This document shows positions 1 to 62,322 of a stretch of DNA of 64,000 nucleotides, one piece after another; within the stretch, counting starts at the first letter, position 1, and every line of letters begins with the position of its first letter. Source of the DNA: Streptococcus constellatus subsp. constellatus (lineage in GTDB: Bacteria; Bacillota; Bacilli; Lactobacillales; Streptococcaceae); the NCBI RefSeq assembly GCF_023167545.1, contig NZ_AP014647.1, positions 248,001 to 312,000 of the forward strand. The letters run 5' to 3'. A program made the translations under genes and the position numbers. Under the pieces are notes generated by a model. That model was not told the origin of the DNA, did not search any database, and saw only the letters and a program-made list of their open reading frames with translations.

Positions 1-2969
1 ATCGTGTTTTTTACGACCAAGTTTTGATTGCAGATGGATACCAATGGCTAAGTTACCGCTCTTATAGTGGTGTTCGTCGCTATGCGGCTATTAACAAGCT
101 GATTCAATCTGAACCTCAACAGCCAGCAAAGCAAACACCTTCTTCAACAGGAACTTTCCCTTCTAGAGGAAGATATATTTTCTCTGGAACGACAGAGGTT
201 AAGAATGAAGCCAAATTGTCAGCTCCGACACAATTTACTTTTAATAGAGGCGATAGCGTTAACTATGATAAAGTGCTGGAAAATGATGGTTATCAATGGA
301 TTAGCTATATTTCTTATAGTGGAATGCGTCGTTATGCAGCTGTTACAAAGTTAGCTCAGCCAGCACCTCAAAGACCAGCTCAAAGTCAAGTGACAGGTAC
401 GATTCACATTGAAAATAAGACCTCGCAAGGCTTTGATGTGGTGGTGACGAATGTCAACTCGACCAAGGGTGTGAAGACGGTGAAGTTGCCTATTTGGTCT
501 AGCCAAGGCGGTCAAGATGACATCATCTGGTACGATGCCACTAAGCAAAATGACGGCACTTATAAATTGAGTGTGAACATTCGTCGTCATAAGAATAACT
601 ACGGTGACTATAATGTGCACATGTATTACGTTCAGTCAGACGGCAGCTTGCAAGGTGTGACGGGTACCACGACTAAGGTGGAAGAACCTAAATATAGTGT
701 GACCGGCACGATTCACATTGAAAATAAGACTTCGCAAGGTTTTGATGTGGTAGTGACAGATGTTAGCTCCACCAAAGGCGTGAAGACAGTGAAGCTGCCT
801 GTTTGGTCCAGTCAAGGCGGTCAAGATGACATCATCTGGTACGATGCAGCCAAGCAAATAGACGGCACCTACAAGTTGAGTGTGGATATTCGTCGCCATA
901 AAAATAATCGAGGCGAATACAACATTCACATGTATTACGTTCAGTCAGATGGTAGCTTGCAAGGTGTAACGGGTACCACGACTAAGGTGGAAGAGCCAAA
1001 ATATAGTGTGACTGGCACCATTAACATTCAAAATAAGACATCTCAAGGCTTTGATGTCCTGATTACAAATGCGTCAGACAGCAATGGAATTTCTAGAGTG
1101 AAAGTTCCTATCTGGACAGATAAGGGCGGTCAAGATGATATTATTTGGTATGATGCCGCTAAGCAAAGTGATGGAAATTATAAAGTTTCTGTCAATATTG
1201 ATAAGCACAAGGGTGAACGTGGCACCTATAATATTCACCTTTACTACATTGAATCAAACGGTAAAGTAAAAGGTGTTAGCGGCACTAAGACAAGTGTAGC
1301 TGAGCCAAGTTCTGCGAGAGAAATCATTCCGTCTCAAGGAGTTTATACTTTTAAAAAAGAGGTTGAAGTCAAAAATAGTCCCGTAATGGCGGCTAAGACT
1401 GAATTTACCTTTGCAAGAGGAGAACGGATTCGCTATGATAAGGTATTAGACGCAGATCATCATCAATGGATTAGTTATGTTAGCTACAGTGGTACACGCC
1501 GTTATATCCCAATTGCAACCTTAACAAATGAAGAAACTCCTAAGCCTGTTCAGGTGACTGGCACGATTCACATTGAAAACAAGACCTCGCAAGGTTTTGA
1601 TGTGGTGGTGACGAATGTCAGCTCGACCAATGGCGTGAAGACAGTGAAGTTGCCTATTTGGTCTAGCCAAGGCGGTCAAGATGATGTGATCTGGTATGAT
1701 GCAGCCAAGCAAACAGACGGCACTTACAAGTTGAATGTGGACATTCGTCGTCATAAGAATAACTACGGTGACTATAATGTGCACATGTATTACGTTCAGT
1801 CAGACGGCAGCTTGCAAGGTGTGACGGGTACCACGACTAAGGTGGAAGAACCTAAATATAGTGTGACCGGCACGATTCACATTGAAAATAAGACTTCGCA
1901 AGGTTTTGATGTGGTGGTGACGAATGTCAGCTCGACCAAGGGTGTGAAGACGGTGAAGTTGCCTATTTGGTCTAGCCAAGGCGGTCAAGATGATGTAATC
2001 TGGTACGATGCCACTAAGCAAACAGACGGCACCTACAAGTTGAGTGTGGATATTCGTCGCCATAAAAATAATCGAGGCGAATACAACATTCACATGTATT
2101 ACGTTCAGTCGGATGGCAGTTTACAAGGTGTAACGGGTACCACGACTAAGGTGGAAGGCCCTCAAACAGGTGCAAAAGAAGTACAATATAATGGCTCCTA
2201 CTACTTTATCCAAGGTAAATATGATGAAATTGTAGTGGCAAACAAAAAGCATCCGATGGCTGCTAACTACAATCCTGGTGAAAATCCAACTGCAAAAGCT
2301 GCCTTTCTTCGATTAAGAAATGATATGATTGCTCAAGGCTATAATGTTGGTTATGCTTACAGCGGATTTAGAAGTTATGATTATCAAAAAGTTCTGTATC
2401 AAAATTATGTGAACAAAGATGGTCAAGCTGCTGCGGATCGTTACTCTGCACGTCCGGGTTATAGTGAGCACCAAACAGGTCTTGTCTTTGATTTAACGGA
2501 TAAAGCGGGCAATCTTTTAGAGGACGCTGCTGCAAGTAATTGGTTGAAGAACAATGCACATCGCTACGGTTTTGTAGTCCGTTACCAACCAGGGAAAGAA
2601 GCTTCGACAGGATACATGCCAGAAGCATGGCATATTCGTTACATCGGTAAGGAAGCTGATGAAGTTTACCATTCTGGTTTGAGTTTAGAGGAATATTATG
2701 GCTTTGAAGGTGGAGATTACGCTTCATCAGTAACCCCGTCAAAACCAACGACTCCGTCTCCCCAAACACCCTCTATCCCTGCTCAAGGTGTATATCGTTT
2801 TACAAAACGCTCCTCTATCAAAGCAGAAGCTAGAATGTCAGCTCCTGAATTGGCTTATTATGATGCCGGGCAATCGGTCACTTATGATAAGGTTTTGAAT
2901 GCAGATGGTGCGACATGGATTTCTTACATTGCTTTTAGCGGAAAGAGACGGTATATTGCTGTTGCTTAA
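1..2969 (+). CDS. Surface/secreted VanY-type carboxypeptidase with SH3 and Bsp-like repeats (5' partial)
   Basis: The reading frame is open from the first bases, so the true start and any signal peptide lie outside the window; the TTG at 24 sits inside an SH3-like module and is not a credible start. Domains in order: the end of one SH3_5-type module, a second at nt 165-352, three Bsp-like repeats (390-1316), a third SH3 module (about 1330-1525), two more Bsp-like repeats (1554-2160), a VanY/DacB-type peptidase (about 2190-2710) and a C-terminal SH3 module. The peptidase shows SEHQTGLVFDL and EAWHIRYIG, the usual zinc-ligand regions of D,D- or L,D-carboxypeptidases. The family trims peptidoglycan stem peptides, and the SH3 modules probably bind the wall. 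There is no LPXTG motif at the C-terminus. D,D versus L,D specificity cannot be decided from sequence. Confidence 0.85.
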   Translation, partial: RVFYDQVLIADGYQWLSYRSYSGVRRYAAINKLIQSEPQQPAKQTPSSTGTFPSRGRYIFSGTTEVKNEAKLSAPTQFTFNRGDSVNYDKVLENDGYQWISYISYSGMRRYAAVTKLAQPAPQRPAQSQVTGTIHIENKTSQGFDVVVTNVNSTKGVKTVKLPIWSSQGGQDDIIWYDATKQNDGTYKLSVNIRRHKNNYGDYNVHMYYVQSDGSLQGVTGTTTKVEEPKYSVTGTIHIENKTSQGFDVVVTDVSSTKGVKTVKLPVWSSQGGQDDIIWYDAAKQIDGTYKLSVDIRRHKNNRGEYNIHMYYVQSDGSLQGVTGTTTKVEEPKYSVTGTINIQNKTSQGFDVLITNASDSNGISRVKVPIWTDKGGQDDIIWYDAAKQSDGNYKVSVNIDKHKGERGTYNIHLYYIESNGKVKGVSGTKTSVAEPSSAREIIPSQGVYTFKKEVEVKNSPVMAAKTEFTFARGERIRYDKVLDADHHQWISYVSYSGTRRYIPIATLTNEETPKPVQVTGTIHIENKTSQGFDVVVTNVSSTNGVKTVKLPIWSSQGGQDDVIWYDAAKQTDGTYKLNVDIRRHKNNYGDYNVHMYYVQSDGSLQGVTGTTTKVEEPKYSVTGTIHIENKTSQGFDVVVTNVSSTKGVKTVKLPIWSSQGGQDDVIWYDATKQTDGTYKLSVDIRRHKNNRGEYNIHMYYVQSDGSLQGVTGTTTKVEGPQTGAKEVQYNGSYYFIQGKYDEIVVANKKHPMAANYNPGENPTAKAAFLRLRNDMIAQGYNVGYAYSGFRSYDYQKVLYQNYVNKDGQAAADRYSARPGYSEHQTGLVFDLTDKAGNLLEDAAASNWLKNNAHRYGFVVRYQPGKEASTGYMPEAWHIRYIGKEADEVYHSGLSLEEYYGFEGGDYASSVTPSKPTTPSPQTPSIPAQGVYRFTKRSSIKAEARMSAPELAYYDAGQSVTYDKVLNADGATWISYIAFSGKRRYIAVA
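390..1316 (+). repeat. Three tandem 309-bp Bsp-like repeat units
   Basis: Units begin at 390, 699 and 1008, an exact 309-bp (103-residue) period. Each encodes a module starting VTGTIxIxNKTSQGFDV and ending near GVxGTxTxV, which I recognise as the GBS Bsp-like repeat family. The first two units are nearly identical. The third is clearly diverged in both protein and DNA. Confidence 0.88.
1554..2160 (+). repeat. Two further 309-bp Bsp-like repeat units
   Basis: Units begin at 1554 and 1863, again 309 bp apart. They are close copies of units 1 and 2. A stretch of about 175 bp (577-751) is identical to the stretch 1,164 bp downstream (1741-1915). An SH3 module separates this pair from the upstream triplet. 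Confidence 0.88.
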
Positions 2970-11009: not shown

Positions 11010-11043
11010 AAAACTCCTTCTAACAGAGCAGATGAGGAGTTTT
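11010..11043 (-). promoter_or_regulatory. Hairpin sequestering the ykoE ribosome-binding site
   Basis: A perfect 9-bp stem (AAAACTCCT / AGGAGTTTT) with a 16-nt loop pairs most of the AAGGAG of ykoE. On the transcript it ends in T6 and then the ATG, so it could act both as an intrinsic terminator and as a translational block under riboswitch control. Confidence 0.6.
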
Positions 11044-11057
11044 AGCGCGACAAAATG

Positions 11058-11085
11058 AAATCTAATCAAAAGAATGGTTAGATTT
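11058..11085 (-). promoter_or_regulatory. AT-rich hairpin in the ykoE leader
   Basis: 8-bp stem AAATCTAA / TTAGATTT between the TPP aptamer and the ribosome-site hairpin. The T run after it is poor, so it may be an anti-terminator or spacer element of the expression platform. Confidence 0.4.
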
Positions 11086-11101
11086 TCTAGTTTTTCATTA
11101 T

Positions 11102-11172
11102 ACATTTCCCTGCGCCAGTATTAACTGTATCAGGTTCAATGGGTATAATCTCAGCCTCAGCACCCCAAATGT
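11102..11172 (-). promoter_or_regulatory. TPP riboswitch (THI element)
   Basis: On the minus strand the conserved blocks GGGGTGCT, GGCTGAGA, ACCC, GAACCTGAT and TACTGGCGCAGGGAA occur in order. They are closed by an ACATTT/AAATGT P1 stem (11102-11107 with 11167-11172). This is the canonical TPP aptamer. It controls ykoEDC and should shut it down when thiamine pyrophosphate is plentiful. Confidence 0.95.
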
Positions 11173-11196
11173 TCTTTGTTGTTTTATTATGCTGTT

Positions 11197-11225
11197 ATTT
11201 TAACATTGATTTCTTAAAATAGCAA
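11197..11225 (-). promoter_or_regulatory. Promoter of the ykoEDC operon
   Basis: On the minus strand: TTGCTA (11225-11220), 17 bp, TAAAAT (11202-11197), followed directly by the TPP aptamer. Confidence 0.65.
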
Positions 11226-11316
11226 GGGACTAGGTTTGTCAATTGTACTGTCTAGTTCTTATCATTCAATAAGAAACAATGATAGATTTACTGATATGAC
11301 AAGAACGAATAGCTAT

Positions 11317-12310
11317 TTATACTAATTGTTCTTTAGCTAAGTCGCGAGCTAATTCATCTTTAATCGTAATGCCTTCGTGTTCTAATTTTTCAATCGCCTT
11401 TGCAAATTGCAGTAAATAGCTTTTGTGAGCTAAAAACAGCTCATCCCGATAAAGGCGATCGCCATATTACCTTGCTGGCGGGATCCTTATAAAGTTCAAA
11501 TAAATCGTGTTCAATTTGTTTGACCTGCTCAGCACGCGTACCGATTGTCCGATATTCCTCTAAGTTATGAGTTGATATTTCTTCAAAACGATAATAATAG
11601 CGATGATAATCACAAGGAATCATCTTCATTTGTTGAAGCTGTTCTTTAAAGTAAGGAATTTCGTAAATATTCTTAGGAATTCCTTTACTGTTATCAAATA
11701 ATTTATCAATCAAGGTTAAGGCGATATCATTGCTGTCTTTATCTGCAACCTTATGCCAATGAAAATGATTGACTCCAGCGAATTGGTAAATTAAATTTTC
11801 TGAATCCATACCAAGAACTTCAGCTTCTCGCATCTTGGCTGCAACTGGTATATTACAAATCCTGATGACTTTTTCCCAATTTCCATAACGCAAAACAGCT
11901 TCTGTGACCATACCTACTGGATTTGTAAAGTTGATGAGCCAGGCATTGGGGCAGAGTCATTTCATGTCTTCGACAATTGCTAAAATCACTGGAATCGTTC
12001 GAAGGGCTTTGAAAATTTCTCCAGGCTCCTTTGTTTCTTGCCCAAGTAGTCCATAGGAAGCAGGGATTGCTTGGGCAAGAATGCGAGTGGAGAGTTGTTC
12101 CACGCGAAACTGTGTTGTTACAAAATCAGCGTTCTTCAGAGCTTCTGTCCAATCCAAGGTTGAATGAATTTTCACATTATGTCCCGAAGCGTTCCACATT
12201 TTTTGAGGCATGGCGGCTATGATATCTTGTTTTTCTTTCCCAGCAGGAACATCAAGCAGCCAGATTTCTTTAATAGGAAGATCGGTATAACGTTTGGTAA
12301 ATCCTTCCAT
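11317..12310 (-). pseudogene. Broken GH4 6-phospho-glucosidase
   Basis: Translated remnants match NAD-dependent family 4 glycosidases (6-phospho-beta-glucosidase type): ADFVTTQFRV, GLLGQETKEPG, LCPNAWLINFTNPVGMVTEA and the metal-site region FAGVNHFHWH. Lesions: the N-terminal NAD-binding start is missing, with a stop codon just upstream of the first recognisable residue. An in-frame TGA at 11957-11959 splits EDMK from LCPNAW. After about 11460 the family core jumps straight to a C-terminal tail (DELFLAHKSYLLQFAKAIEK), so roughly a hundred residues appear to be deleted. It cannot make active enzyme. Confidence 0.85.
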
Positions 12311-14142: not shown

Positions 14143-14571
14143 TTAATCCTTTTTGGTATCTTGTATGTCTATCTCCCATACGCTTCTGGTAAAAATCATT
14201 GAGAGTAGAGCTAGCCCGGCTAATCCAATTCCAACATACCAGTAAGGTAAATCCAGTGTGGTAGAGCGACCAGATAGATTGACAATACCGCGAAAAAGAA
14301 CGCCAACGGCAATGGTTGCGACCGCAGAATTCCAAAGATTGAGACTGAGTCGCGAAAGATTAGGAATAAGTTTTTGAAAAATAAGGAGCACAACCCCACC
14401 TATCAGCGGTACTCCGAAGAGCCAGTGCATATAGACTGAAGTCTCTCCAAAACTGAAGTGTTCGTAAATGCGACTAAAGATAAAGAAGAATACTGTAATT
14501 AGGGTATAGACCACCGCTGTCTTTTTAAAACGTTTGTTGTTTGTTTTAGTAACCAATGTAGACAATGTCAC
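14143..14571 (-). CDS. Small four-helix membrane protein, function unknown
   Basis: 142 residues with four hydrophobic segments (around VVYTLITVFFFIFSRIY, WLFGVPLIGGVVLLIF, WNSAVATIAVGVLFRGIV and YVGIGLAGLALLSMIF). No catalytic motif is recognised. The start codon lies 26 nt inside the end of the upstream glycosyltransferase fusion, in another frame, so translation is probably coupled. The context suggests an accessory membrane partner of that fusion. It is too small to be a GT-C type transferase. Confidence 0.7.
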   Translation of the reverse strand: MTLSTLVTKTNNKRFKKTAVVYTLITVFFFIFSRIYEHFSFGETSVYMHWLFGVPLIGGVVLLIFQKLIPNLSRLSLNLWNSAVATIAVGVLFRGIVNLSGRSTTLDLPYWYVGIGLAGLALLSMIFTRSVWEIDIQDTKKD

Positions 14572-16489
14572 TCACCGCCCTTTCTGAAATTGTTCCGTTA
14601 GTCGTTGGTTTATTGACGACTTTTCGATTAAAGTAAAGAGTAGACGAACCACCGCCATCCAGATTATAAGCAGTTTTAACACCATAGGATTTCATCACCT
14701 GAGCTAGTTGGTAAAGAGACAGGCCTTGACTTTCAGATGTTCGGCCGTCTGATACAACGATGACATAATGGGTTTTATCAATTATCCCAATAGCTGTACG
14801 TGGATTAGAAGCCATGGATTGCCCCACTTCCGAATTACTTGAAACAGTAATCTTACCGTTGTTAACTAAAGTAGGACCAAAGGCAAGAAGGTTTACAACA
14901 CCATTTTTAACCAAGTCTTCAGCAGAAACATCATTTTCGTAAACAATTCCGAAACTCCCATCTTTATAAATCGCTAGATCACCATTACTAGCATCTTCAC
15001 GAACGGTATTTCGATAGACAACACCATTGCGGATGACGTAACCAGTTGTATTTGCTCCGTAGAAATCACCGTTGATAGCCAGAATGGCATTGTTATTGGC
15101 TGCTGTAACCGAAGTCTTAGCGGTTACGTTATTTCCATATGTATTTTGTGCTAGAGCAGTTTTAAGATATTTGGGGGAGCTGACCGTAATATCTGCAATG
15201 TACACTTTTGTGTTGCTGACGTTTTTTGTAGTTAGGTTAATGGAAACATTATCGTCCTTATAGCTTTTATTTGTCTTTGTCGCATTTGTTGCTGTTTTAG
15301 CATTTGTTGTGCTGGTGGAGGTAGAAGAGGATTTGACTGTTGTAATAGCTTCTGATAGAACAAAAGTTTTTAACATGGAGTAGGTAAACGATCCTGTTAG
15401 CAACATACCAAAGAGACTAGCATAGGTATAGGATTTTTTTAAAATTTCATGATAAGGTGTGAGTCCCTTCTTTGAAAATAATTTTTTTTGAACGAGCCAA
15501 GATAGGCAAAAGAGCAGTGATCCGACAATGATTTTAACAATCAGCAAATTGAGACCGAAAATGGCGTAAAATAGTCTGATTAAAAGGGTGTCGAGGATAA
15601 ACAAGCCCAAGGCTAACCCGAAATAACCAGTCCCTGTTTTGGTAACGCTGTCTTTATTTTTAAAGACCAGTTTTTTATTTGTGGAATAATTGACAATTGA
15701 GCTCGTGACACGAGCTACTCCATTTGCCAGTAAAATTTTGAGACTAGTTGGCACTGTAGCAAGCACCAAAAGGGCTAGCGCATAGACGATATAGTCAATC
15801 AAAAAACTACTAATTGAAGAAAGAGCAAATTTAAACATCTTTTTGTAAATCATGAATCCGTCGCGTATTGGTCTAAAGTGAGAAGCTTGATTGTCATTGA
15901 TATAAATGGTTTCAATTGGAACTTCGCTGATAGGATATTTTGTAGAAGCAGATAACAGCATATTCATTTCGTATTCATAACGCTGTCCTTCAATCTCTAA
16001 CATAAATGGAATCATATTGGTTGTAAAGCCACGAAGTCCGGTCTGAGTATCTGTCACAGAAACACCAGTCTGTCGCTGAAATGGGAATCGTGTTACTTTA
16101 TTTCCAAAAGCCGAGCGCAAAGAGACCTTTCCAGAAAAAGAACGAACTCCCAGAATTAAGTGGTTGGGGTTTTCTTGAGCTTTTTTGCTCACGCGAAAAA
16201 TATCCCATACGTTGTGTTGACCATCCGCATCAGCTGTAACTACTGTCCCATATTGTCCTAAGGTATCAATATAAGTAAAAGCGTTTTTCAATGCCTGTCC
16301 TTTTCCTTGATTGCTTGGATAGCATAAAATAATAGCGTATTTCTGAGCTTCTTGAAAAATCGAATCATAACTAGCTGGGCTACCGTCATTAACAACAACG
16401 ACATGCAAGGAACTCTTTGCCTTCACCCTTTGTAAAAGATGAATGAGAGTGAGGTCAGGTTTGTAAGCAGGAATGACTAAAAAATCCAT
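14546..16489 (-). CDS. Fusion: GT2 glycosyltransferase + GtrA-like membrane domain + phosphodiester glycosidase
   Basis: 647 residues with three recognisable parts. Residues 1-215 are a DPM1-like family 2 glycosyltransferase with VVVNDGS, PSNQGKGQALKNA and the DADGQH metal/nucleotide motif at 87-92. Such enzymes charge polyprenyl phosphate with a sugar. Residues about 220-345 form a four-helix GtrA-like domain, a family linked to flipping that lipid-sugar. A fifth helix (about 355-378) and a Ser/Thr/Asn-rich linker (about 386-412) follow. Residues about 415-647 are a NAGPA/phosphodiester glycosidase domain with ILAINGDFYG, NPRTAIGI and YNLDGGGSSTLYFN. With the N-terminus inside and five helices, the glycosidase would lie outside the cell. 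A role in adding or trimming wall or exopolysaccharide sugars is inference. Confidence 0.85.
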   Translation of the reverse strand: MDFLVIPAYKPDLTLIHLLQRVKAKSSLHVVVVNDGSPASYDSIFQEAQKYAIILCYPSNQGKGQALKNAFTYIDTLGQYGTVVTADADGQHNVWDIFRVSKKAQENPNHLILGVRSFSGKVSLRSAFGNKVTRFPFQRQTGVSVTDTQTGLRGFTTNMIPFMLEIEGQRYEYEMNMLLSASTKYPISEVPIETIYINDNQASHFRPIRDGFMIYKKMFKFALSSISSFLIDYIVYALALLVLATVPTSLKILLANGVARVTSSIVNYSTNKKLVFKNKDSVTKTGTGYFGLALGLFILDTLLIRLFYAIFGLNLLIVKIIVGSLLFCLSWLVQKKLFSKKGLTPYHEILKKSYTYASLFGMLLTGSFTYSMLKTFVLSEAITTVKSSSTSTSTTNAKTATNATKTNKSYKDDNVSINLTTKNVSNTKVYIADITVSSPKYLKTALAQNTYGNNVTAKTSVTAANNNAILAINGDFYGANTTGYVIRNGVVYRNTVREDASNGDLAIYKDGSFGIVYENDVSAEDLVKNGVVNLLAFGPTLVNNGKITVSSNSEVGQSMASNPRTAIGIIDKTHYVIVVSDGRTSESQGLSLYQLAQVMKSYGVKTAYNLDGGGSSTLYFNRKVVNKPTTNGTISERAVSDIVYIGY

Positions 16490-60599: not shown

Positions 60600-62322
60600 A
60601 ATGAGTCTGAGACAAAATAGTTCTCAGTCACAAAAAAGCTAGAGATTCCCAATTATGGAACTCTAGCTTTTTAAGTTTGAGTCGTTCTCTTATTGTATTT
60701 AAGGAGATTATTGGCCATGAGCACTAAACCCATGTCAATTTTCACCTGACGCTTGCCTCTTAGGTTACATCTCTTGTAACCCAAATAAGCCTTTATCTGC
60801 CCAAAGACAGGTTCCACATCAATCTTACGTTGATTGAAAATCTGTCTACCTTCGGGAGATAAAAGCGCTTGGCATTCTTTAGCTTTTAAGTGTTGATAAC
60901 GTTCGTTGATATATAGTCCCTTTTGAGGGGCTGATTTAGGTTCATCAGCGTAGTAAACCTTGATTTCCTGTTGAAAGTCCGTCTGTGTTTTCTGATGTTT
61001 GATATGATGAAAACGATAGCACCAGCCATCAGGATGAGTGTAGCTATCCTCCTTGTCATCATAGTACCAATTCGCTAAGTTTCTAGCCGACTGTTTATAC
61101 CCTTTCTTCTGTTCCTGATCAAACATGGCATATTTAATCAGATGGTTCACCTCATTTTCATCTAAACGAAGGAGGTTCTCTTCACTTCCATAGCCGGCAT
61201 CTGCGACAACGGTCTTCAAGTCATGTGGATAAGTTTCAAGGAATGGCAGGAGAGTCTTGGTATCTGTCGGATTTGAGAAGACATCATAATGAAGAACAAA
61301 TTGATTTTCAGTAGCGATTTGAAGATTGTAAGCAGCCTTGAGTTGACCATTCTTCATGTGGTCTTCTTTCATCCGCATAAAAGTGGCATCTGTATCTGTT
61401 TTGGAAAAGCTGTTACGCCCTTCAAATGTCTCTTGGTAGCCTTCATATTTTTCAGCACGTACTGAAAAATCATCCTTGACTTTACGCAGGACTTTCTTGA
61501 GTTTCCGACGTTGAGTTTTACGTTCATCCTTTCCTTTAACGGGTGTCTCCTCAATGTCTTGGTTCAGTTTTTCCAATTCTTCTTCGAGGACTTGAGCGAA
61601 TTCAATCAACTGCTCTGAAGCAATCGGTTCTTCTTCGTCCAGCCTAATGGCCTGATGGATAAGGGGAGTGATTTCTTCTTGAAAATAGACCTGTATCTGT
61701 TCTTGAAGTTTGACGGAAAACTTGTCTGTGGCCTTTTTCCACACGAAACTATACTTGTTAGCGTTGGCTTCAATCTTAGTCCCGTCAATAAACAGACAAT
61801 CTAAGGTCACTAACTCTTCCATTTTTAAACGAAGATTGAGGTCGATGAAAAGATCACGAATGAGCTCTTCCATTCCTTCAGCGACTCGAAAACGATTGAT
61901 GGTGCGATAGCTGACAACCAACTGTCCTGTTAGGTATTGCATAGCCAGATTTTCAATCATCATTTTTTCGATTTTTCGTCCAGAGAAAATCCCTTGCGAG
62001 TAGGCAAATAGTAGAGCGGCTAAAAGCATTTTAGGGTGATAAGACGGGCGACCAAAGTTATGATAGAACGTGTGGAAGTGACAATCCTCCAAAGTATTCA
62101 CCACTTTTTCAATAGTAAAGACGAGATGGTCTTGTGGCAAGAAAGAACTGATTTCTAGTGGTAAAGTTGTTTGATTTGTGTTATAGTGAATATGCATGGG
62201 ATAGCCTTTCTAAATGGTTCATTGGGCAATTCTATTTTACCAAGACTATCGCAACCATGCAAAAAGCAACGGCAAATCCGTTGCTTTTTTTGTAGCAAAG
62301 GGACTATTGTCCCAGACTCATT
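60600..62322 (-). mobile_element. IS1182-family insertion sequence
   Basis: About 1.72 kb. Terminal inverted repeats: GAGTCTGAGACAAAATAG at 60603-60620 and, reversed, GAGTCTGGGACAATAG at 62319-62304. It carries one transposase gene. Terminator-like hairpins sit just inside both ends (60634-60672 and 62261-62291), which would insulate it from outside transcription. No convincing target duplication is seen. Confidence 0.8.
60671..62197 (-). CDS. IS1182-family transposase
   Basis: 508 residues and apparently intact. The N-terminal HTH-like region with FGRPSYHPKMLLAALLFAYSQG and RTINRFR is followed by the DDE domain: VTLDCLFIDGTKIEANANKYSFVW (first Asp), VVADAGYGSEENL (second Asp) and the C-terminal VEPVFGQIKAYLGYKRCNLRG (Glu). 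The layout is typical of IS1182/IS1380-like DDE enzymes. Stop codon lies inside the left-end hairpin. Confidence 0.92.
   Translation of the reverse strand: MHIHYNTNQTTLPLEISSFLPQDHLVFTIEKVVNTLEDCHFHTFYHNFGRPSYHPKMLLAALLFAYSQGIFSGRKIEKMMIENLAMQYLTGQLVVSYRTINRFRVAEGMEELIRDLFIDLNLRLKMEELVTLDCLFIDGTKIEANANKYSFVWKKATDKFSVKLQEQIQVYFQEEITPLIHQAIRLDEEEPIASEQLIEFAQVLEEELEKLNQDIEETPVKGKDERKTQRRKLKKVLRKVKDDFSVRAEKYEGYQETFEGRNSFSKTDTDATFMRMKEDHMKNGQLKAAYNLQIATENQFVLHYDVFSNPTDTKTLLPFLETYPHDLKTVVADAGYGSEENLLRLDENEVNHLIKYAMFDQEQKKGYKQSARNLANWYYDDKEDSYTHPDGWCYRFHHIKHQKTQTDFQQEIKVYYADEPKSAPQKGLYINERYQHLKAKECQALLSPEGRQIFNQRKIDVEPVFGQIKAYLGYKRCNLRGKRQVKIDMGLVLMANNLLKYNKRTTQT

Follow-up and report, generated by a model that had tools for sequence, protein, structure and literature searches.

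The unloading of lipid-linked sugars on the outside of the cell is ascribed to GT-C enzymes. The polyprenyl-phosphate sugar is a sugar-1-phosphodiester, the type of bond which NAGPA enzymes cleave. In the described systems GtrA/GtrB/Gtr*, CsbB-GtcA-YfhO and GtlA-GtcA-GtlB, a GT2 polyprenyl-phosphate-sugar synthase is combined with a GtrA protein, the donor is expected to be used outside, and the third part of such three-component systems is a GT-C transferase (PMC8035078, a review; this and the other papers given by PMC number are cited from excerpts). Here we describe a related cassette in a 64,000-nucleotide (nt) stretch of the Streptococcus constellatus subsp. constellatus genome (contig NZ_AP014647.1, positions 248,001 to 312,000), referred to as the window. 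One gene encodes a fused protein with GT2, GtrA and NAGPA domains, and a second, overlapping gene encodes a small four-helix membrane protein, which we named TM4. In contrast to the GtrA/GtrB/Gtr*-type systems, no GT-C was recognised in or beside the cassette, and NAGPA and the 140 amino acid (aa) TM4 were found instead.

The fused protein resembles the Pyrococcus furiosus dolichyl-phosphate mannose (DPM) synthase with its GtrA-type membrane domain (5mlz), from which it differs by an extra helix and the NAGPA domain. With the NAGPA/DUF2233 proteins (animal uncovering enzyme, BACOVA_00430) it shares the fold and hallmark residues, but here the domain is anchored in the membrane and linked to an enzyme that makes a lipid-linked sugar. 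An earlier note on the window knew no described system of this layout, and none was found in our literature searches. Phosphodiester glycosidase together with GtrA gave no description (the name DUF2233 was not searched, and subscription literature was mostly outside the scope), the combination with glycosyltransferase and exopolysaccharide gave no match, and that with undecaprenyl or Streptococcus gave only matches that were off-topic in excerpt. The cassette is apparently an undescribed bacterial surface system of patchy distribution.

We propose that the fused protein and TM4 work together in the membrane as a module which charges, flips and discharges a lipid-linked sugar, namely a three-component glycosylation system without GT-C, with a probability of about 0.4. 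The chemical steps, the sugar and the acceptor we infer as follows. From its family and fold, the GT2 domain would act at the inner face of the membrane, charging polyprenyl phosphate with the sugar of a nucleotide-sugar, and the GtrA domain, whose flippase activity is itself a proposal, would carry or present the lipid-linked sugar to the outer face. There NAGPA, which helix 5 and a flexible linker would keep just outside the membrane, would break the C1-O-P bond of the polyprenyl-phosphate sugar, with TM4 as its putative partner at the outer leaflet. NAGPA (and TM4) would take the place of GT-C, and the sugar would most likely be passed to an outside acceptor, which may be part of a surface system with VTC (polyphosphate-polymerase-like), DUF4956 and the carbohydrate-binding lipoprotein Cthe_2159. 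Since the cassette holds a maker, a probable flippase and an outside enzyme for the same bond, with no GT-C nearby, NAGPA-TM4 may be the part that discharges the lipid-linked sugar. Transfer seems likelier than hydrolysis alone, since a hydrolase fused to the synthase would only undo its work. The polyprenyl-phosphate sugar would also be a closer chemical target for NAGPA than the sugar-1-phosphate bonds of wall glycans.

The observed domain fusion at the window locus was confirmed as real. All domains named in the earlier note (GT2, GtrA, fifth helix, linker and NAGPA) were borne out (Table 1), and the hidden Markov model search it had set as a check matched both GtrA (PF04138, 44.5 bits, cut-off 26.1) and NAGPA. 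A sequencing or assembly artefact was ruled out by three near-identical 647-aa proteins, the window's included. The GT2 domain is of the DPMS type, with the acidic motifs kept and a fold match over the full length; residues D35, D87, D89, Q91 and H92 are invariant in a 58-row alignment (window and 57 homologues). Against specific equivalogs it scored far below the cut-offs (AglJ 61 bits, cut-off 325; PpgS 56 bits, cut-off 370). The predicted helices of the GtrA domain lie within residues 216-338, and the equivalent of helix 5 in relatives is the N-terminal anchor of a stand-alone NAGPA protein. Equivalent linkers contain 36-61% Ser and Thr in 17 of 19 Streptococcus loci (the other two were not delimited by the script). 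The C-terminal domain has the NAGPA fold and keeps the hallmark residues common to animal enzymes (N473-G474, R564-T565, D581-G582 and D611-GGGS); its orientation to the membrane in the structure model (predicted template modelling score 0.51) was left unused.

NAGPA, TM4 and GT2-GtrA are tied together across genomes. Through NAGPA-centred patterns we collected 80 named loci, 61 of them non-streptococcal, and detected TM4 by profile search. GT2-GtrA is located directly upstream of NAGPA in 59/80 loci (in L064 with one gene between). The genomes of 20 of the 21 loci without adjacent GT2-GtrA were searched (L085 was left out): 18 hold a full-length copy elsewhere, in one the copy is split into two pieces, and in one there are GtrA fragments only. 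In L050 the contig that carries NAGPA is truncated at its beginning, and GT2-GtrA may sit across the contig break. In a sample of 299 genomes from the phylum, members of the GT2-GtrA subfamily (E <= 1e-40) occur in 26 and TM4, patchily, in nine, and all nine TM4 genomes belong to the 26 (hypergeometric 7e-11; 8/8 and 1e-9 without G088, whose TM4 match is weak and partial), with kinship among genomes ignored in this and the Fisher figures. Of 36 Streptococcus genomes, the 22 that bear NAGPA all contain TM4, against one of the 14 others. That one, G029, is a decayed cassette: it retains an 86-aa TM4 remnant open reading frame (ORF; L121:6308-6568) and neither NAGPA nor GT2-GtrA. A more divergent NAGPA adjoins GT2-GtrA in five of ten fetched loci (L108 and L113-L116). 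The coupling of NAGPA to GT2-GtrA claimed in the earlier note is thus upheld by the adjacency, the recurrent fusion and the 9/9 co-occurrence with TM4. A reversed order, NAGPA then GT2-GtrA, was seen without a TM4 match in L128, L131 and L132, which come from two genomes of one same-class family and one other genome.

The fusion described in the earlier note proved incidental in itself, since the genes are separate in 21 of the 22 cassette-bearing Streptococcus (own genome included) and form a single frame only in the window's genome. We built a NAGPA-domain tree of 160 rows, composed of 87 fused proteins (window and 86 others) and 73 separate ones (21 without GT2-GtrA nearby), by a quick method and from a biased sample. 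The nearest neighbours of the window protein are two fused proteins within a group of separate Streptococcus genes, of which those of S. parasanguinis and Streptococcus sp. HSISM1 are the closest. Among the relatives listed, 86/120 are fused by a length and motif filter. Parsimony on the 160-row tree gave at least 14 switches between fused and separate state, or at least six counting starred branches only; the fusion is therefore recurrent, and recent in the window lineage.

TM4 is a real gene. Its profile match lies directly downstream of NAGPA in 78/80 loci, where the TM4 frame opens inside the NAGPA 3′ end. The TTG start is conserved in 78/78 loci and spans the Ile and the next codon of a C-terminal D-I-V motif in NAGPA. 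This Ile codon is ATT in 77/77 loci found by the protein motif, and L049, the 78th locus, reads ATT-G by eye; gene-wide, ATT accounts for a mean of 38% of Ile codons (74 of these NAGPA genes), and the codon two further on from the motif Ile is mostly ATC (63/77). An in-frame stop was found only two sense codons upstream of the TTG in 74/77 loci. Between this stop and the TTG there is no alternative ATG, GTG or TTG in 50/77 loci, one in 26 and two in one, and the extra codons in the 26 loci are mostly of the GTG type that the earlier note had used as start. In the window, TM4 therefore most probably starts at 14565, not at 14571. The overlapping four-helix gene of the earlier note therefore stands, with the overlap corrected from 26 to 20 nt and the product to 140 aa.

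An exact 5-8 nt match to the Shine-Dalgarno consensus occurs no more than 18 nt before the TTG in 77/77 scored loci, and the longest match ends 11-13 nt before it in 65/77. Such a distance exceeds the usual ribosome-binding-site spacing. In nine NAGPA genes without TM4, including those of L081 and L091 (the 2/80 loci without it), there was neither a TTG at the site nor a Shine-Dalgarno match of at least 5 nt (9/9). A chance ORF was ruled out by the 78/80 occurrence and by the conserved start signals being missing where TM4 is absent. At locus L026 the TM4 frame is broken off after 21 codons. We considered a programmed frameshift from NAGPA to TM4 and set it aside: the frame relation is constant across loci, but with the TTG in 78/78 loci and the purine-rich match of at least 5 nt in the 77 scored, plain re-initiation suffices, although the 11-13 nt spacing counts against the latter. 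Judged from sequence, TM4 is probably translationally coupled to NAGPA. The promoter scan gave 8 matches against 7.9 by chance, and terminator-like sites numbered 4 against a mean of 2.0.

The structure prediction of TM4 (predicted local distance difference test score 92.9) comprises four helices. No dependable relative of TM4 emerged from the fold search or from scanning 59 members with Pfam; 8 members matched DUF2871, at best with 3.5e-4. Conserved residues include Y34, E35, S38, S43, M46, P53, G99 and Y108, and 11 of 15 conserved columns (start excluded) fall in residues 34-54 and 99-108. By the positive-inside rule, these two stretches of the model may face outside.

Table 1. Parts of the cassette in the window (positions counted from the first nucleotide of the window).
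Feature	Position	Strand	Details
Fused gene	14546..16489	-	647 aa; GT2 + GtrA + helix 5 + linker + NAGPA
GT2 domain	16097..16480	-	residues 4-131; Pfam
GtrA_DPMS_TM domain	15479..15832	-	residues 220-337; four helices
Fifth helix	15362..15433	-	residues 353-376
Linker	15269..15340	-	about residues 384-407; S/T-rich
NAGPA domain	14555..15094	-	residues 466-645 by Pfam (PF09992); fold starts near 407
Shine-Dalgarno-like AAAGG	14579..14583	-	within NAGPA codons, 13 nt 5′ of TM4 TTG
TM4 gene	14143..14565	-	membrane protein of 140 aa with four helices; starts at TTG; overlaps fused gene by 20 nt

GT-C transferases have 7-13 helices (PMC11127046). Within five genes of the 80 cassettes we found 21 neighbours of at least 270 aa with at least seven predicted helices (simple hydropathy count), and 20 were scanned with Pfam (the 21st, in L031, is the counterpart of that in L030). 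No GT-C family was found among the 20 scanned multi-helix neighbours of the 80 cassettes: 19 belong to transporter, channel, SecDF, SpoIIE, ion ATPase, undecaprenyl-phosphate (UndP)-translocase-like or similar families, and the one in L082 showed only sub-cut-off hydrolase matches. The GT-C of a three-component system was thus not found in the cassette, whose partner protein TM4 has four helices and 140 aa, in agreement with the earlier view that the third part is replaced. Two further proteins near GT2-GtrA or the cassette match no Pfam family: an 11-helix protein of 617 aa, which follows GT2-GtrA and a GT2/PilZ synthase-like protein in the TM4-less L137 (5620-10888), and a neighbour of 612 aa in L129.

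GT2-GtrA might instead supply a distant GT-C such as YfhO, with NAGPA-TM4 trimming or proofreading the product. Several GT-A/GT-C pairs can share a single GtrA flippase (PMC8035078), and the own genome contains YfhO without a GT2 neighbour (by eye) and a weak PMT_2-like protein, both potential users of lipid-linked sugars. However, YfhO was matched in 35/36 Streptococcus (34 over the cut-off) irrespective of the cassette, the match in cassette-bearing G002 is weak and interrupted, and cassette-bearing G006 (86% complete) has none. Neither YfhO, nearly ubiquitous in Streptococcus, nor the PMT_2-like protein was found to be associated with the cassette. Either may nonetheless use the same donor, but we consider this explanation very doubtful.

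Neighbours of the 61 non-streptococcal loci were clustered and identified by Pfam on members, and the counts are raw, without genome-wide control. Five families recur: histidine kinase (17/61), Cthe_2159 (15), response regulator (15), VTC (14) and DUF4956 (12). At least one of VTC, DUF4956 and Cthe_2159 is present in 16/61 loci and all three in eleven. Several Clostridia have the trio next to the cassette. It runs straight into GT2-GtrA, NAGPA and TM4 on the same strand in L053, L065, L084 and L100, as was Pfam-checked in L053 and L100. In Streptococcus, Cthe_2159 (G005) or VTC and DUF4956 (G020) lie between cassette parts, and in G026 the trio is beside GT2-GtrA with NAGPA-TM4 on another contig. 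Cthe_2159 (E < 1e-60) occurs in 21/22 cassette-bearing and 5/14 other Streptococcus (p 2e-4, or 7e-4 if a weak G013 match is counted), and VTC in 18/22 and 4/14 (p 0.004), kinship again ignored. In the own genome, the three genes form a separate overlapping operon (G000:C1:1853695-1856561; L150:5696-8562, - strand), and no pel genes were recognised by eye in 14 kb beside it. Genes similar to dltB and dltA (named by eye) are located about 2.6 kb from this operon.

In streptococci and clostridia, genes for VTC-type proteins and DUF4956 are likewise found next to Pel exopolysaccharide genes, in loci with CotH (PMC7112168, PMC12345266). According to PMC12345266, its CotH-containing trio was not found outside Pel loci. 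The cassette shares with Pel loci the VTC-type (polyphosphate polymerase) and DUF4956 genes, and differs by Cthe_2159 in place of CotH. These two neighbours point to phosphate chemistry, both stand beside Pel genes as well, and they would agree with the interpretation of the earlier note, the main rival to ours: GT2-GtrA feeds an outside glycan, and NAGPA removes sugar-1-phosphate-bound sugars from a surface polymer. This reaction type is known in the family, on N-acetylglucosamine (GlcNAc)-1-P-mannose in animals (PMC12024695). On the other hand, the own genome yielded no Stealth hexose-1-phosphotransferases, enzymes that form such bonds, and these show no association with the cassette (4/22 against 2/14 Streptococcus), and the recurrent fusion to a lipid-sugar synthase is left unexplained. 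We consider such editing somewhat unlikely.

At locus L064 (Oscillospiraceae metagenome-assembled genome), the gene between GT2-GtrA and NAGPA (11034-11873, + strand) is UndP-translocase-like (PF04018, 113.8 bits, cut-off 26), in keeping with a release of UndP on the outside. No further gene of this kind turned up near cassettes when the neighbour sets were searched by BLAST; the multi-helix protein of 294 aa beside GT2-GtrA in L111 was rejected as UndP translocase, being Rce1-like. The L064 gene would also suit a role of NAGPA in merely hydrolysing outward-facing polyprenyl-phosphate sugar, by which the carrier is freed. The bond suits NAGPA chemistry, the histidine kinase and response regulator genes counted above might belong to a stress system, and in bacteria UndP is reported to be freed from UndP-sugars by Bacillus subtilis UshA (PMC11898649), which may share the substrate class, polyprenyl-monophosphate sugars. 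Nevertheless, a synthase fused to a hydrolase would make a futile cycle, the two-component genes are known as neighbours only and not as cassette regulators, and UshA is an alpha-beta hydrolase acting at the cytoplasmic face, unrelated in fold to the outside NAGPA domain. Such carrier rescue is quite unlikely.

Several points weigh against a discharge of the lipid-linked sugar by NAGPA-TM4. GT2 enzymes are inverting and would yield beta-linked D-sugars; as animal NAGPA is specific for the alpha form, the anomers may be mismatched. We know of no activity for any member, nor of a precedent for an enzyme of a glycosidase family that would work as a transferase with a polyprenyl-phosphate sugar as donor. 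The functional statements rest on association. GT2-GtrA occurs without TM4 in 17/26 genomes, and 10 of 13 TM4-less GT2-GtrA loci read (from 13 of the 17 genomes; in G124 only the weaker of two copies) have no adjoining NAGPA. NAGPA-TM4 lies far from GT2-GtrA or on other contigs in G239, G264 and G312. The PF04018 gene was seen in 1/80 loci and would suit a GT-C user equally, and YfhO and the PMT_2-like protein of the own genome could be such users. Outside Streptococcus the linkers are less Ser/Thr-rich (20-36% in seven delimited loci). TM4 could be assigned to no fold or family, and the lack of a match among the listed folds does not prove a new fold.

Considering that animal NAGPA also cleaves UDP-GlcNAc (PMC12024695), the leaving group can vary. 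The Cthe_2159 lipoproteins have Ser/Thr-rich stalks (by eye), and these, together with the stalks of streptococcal NAGPA, are acceptor candidates. We might speculate further, as a rather unlikely extension of our proposal, that the NAGPA fold represents a new class of extracytoplasmic glycosyltransferase (or discharging enzyme) which uses polyprenyl-phosphate sugars directly, an alternative to GT-C. With GT2-GtrA, TM4, VTC, DUF4956 and Cthe_2159 it would compose an unrecognised six-component surface-glycosylation system of Bacillota, and its acceptor might be the NAGPA and Cthe_2159 proteins of the system itself, at their Ser/Thr-rich stalks. The cassette places NAGPA and a small conserved membrane protein where no GT-C is recognisable, in 22/36 Streptococcus genomes, and is linked to VTC, DUF4956 and Cthe_2159 genes. 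Bacterial NAGPA proteins thereby gain a likely substrate class, and TM4 gains a partner, its overlapping start fixing the reading frame.

Three other features were noted in the window. At 24-2969 (+ strand) a 981-aa surface-type protein combines a VanY peptidase domain with five GBS_Bsp-like repeats and four SH3_5 domains. The gene of a family 4 glycosidase at 11441-12310 (- strand) seems broken, with the N-terminal piece (Glyco_hydro_4) and the C-terminal one (Glyco_hydro_4C) in separate short ORFs. The 508-aa ORF at 60671-62197 (- strand) is transposase-like by eye.

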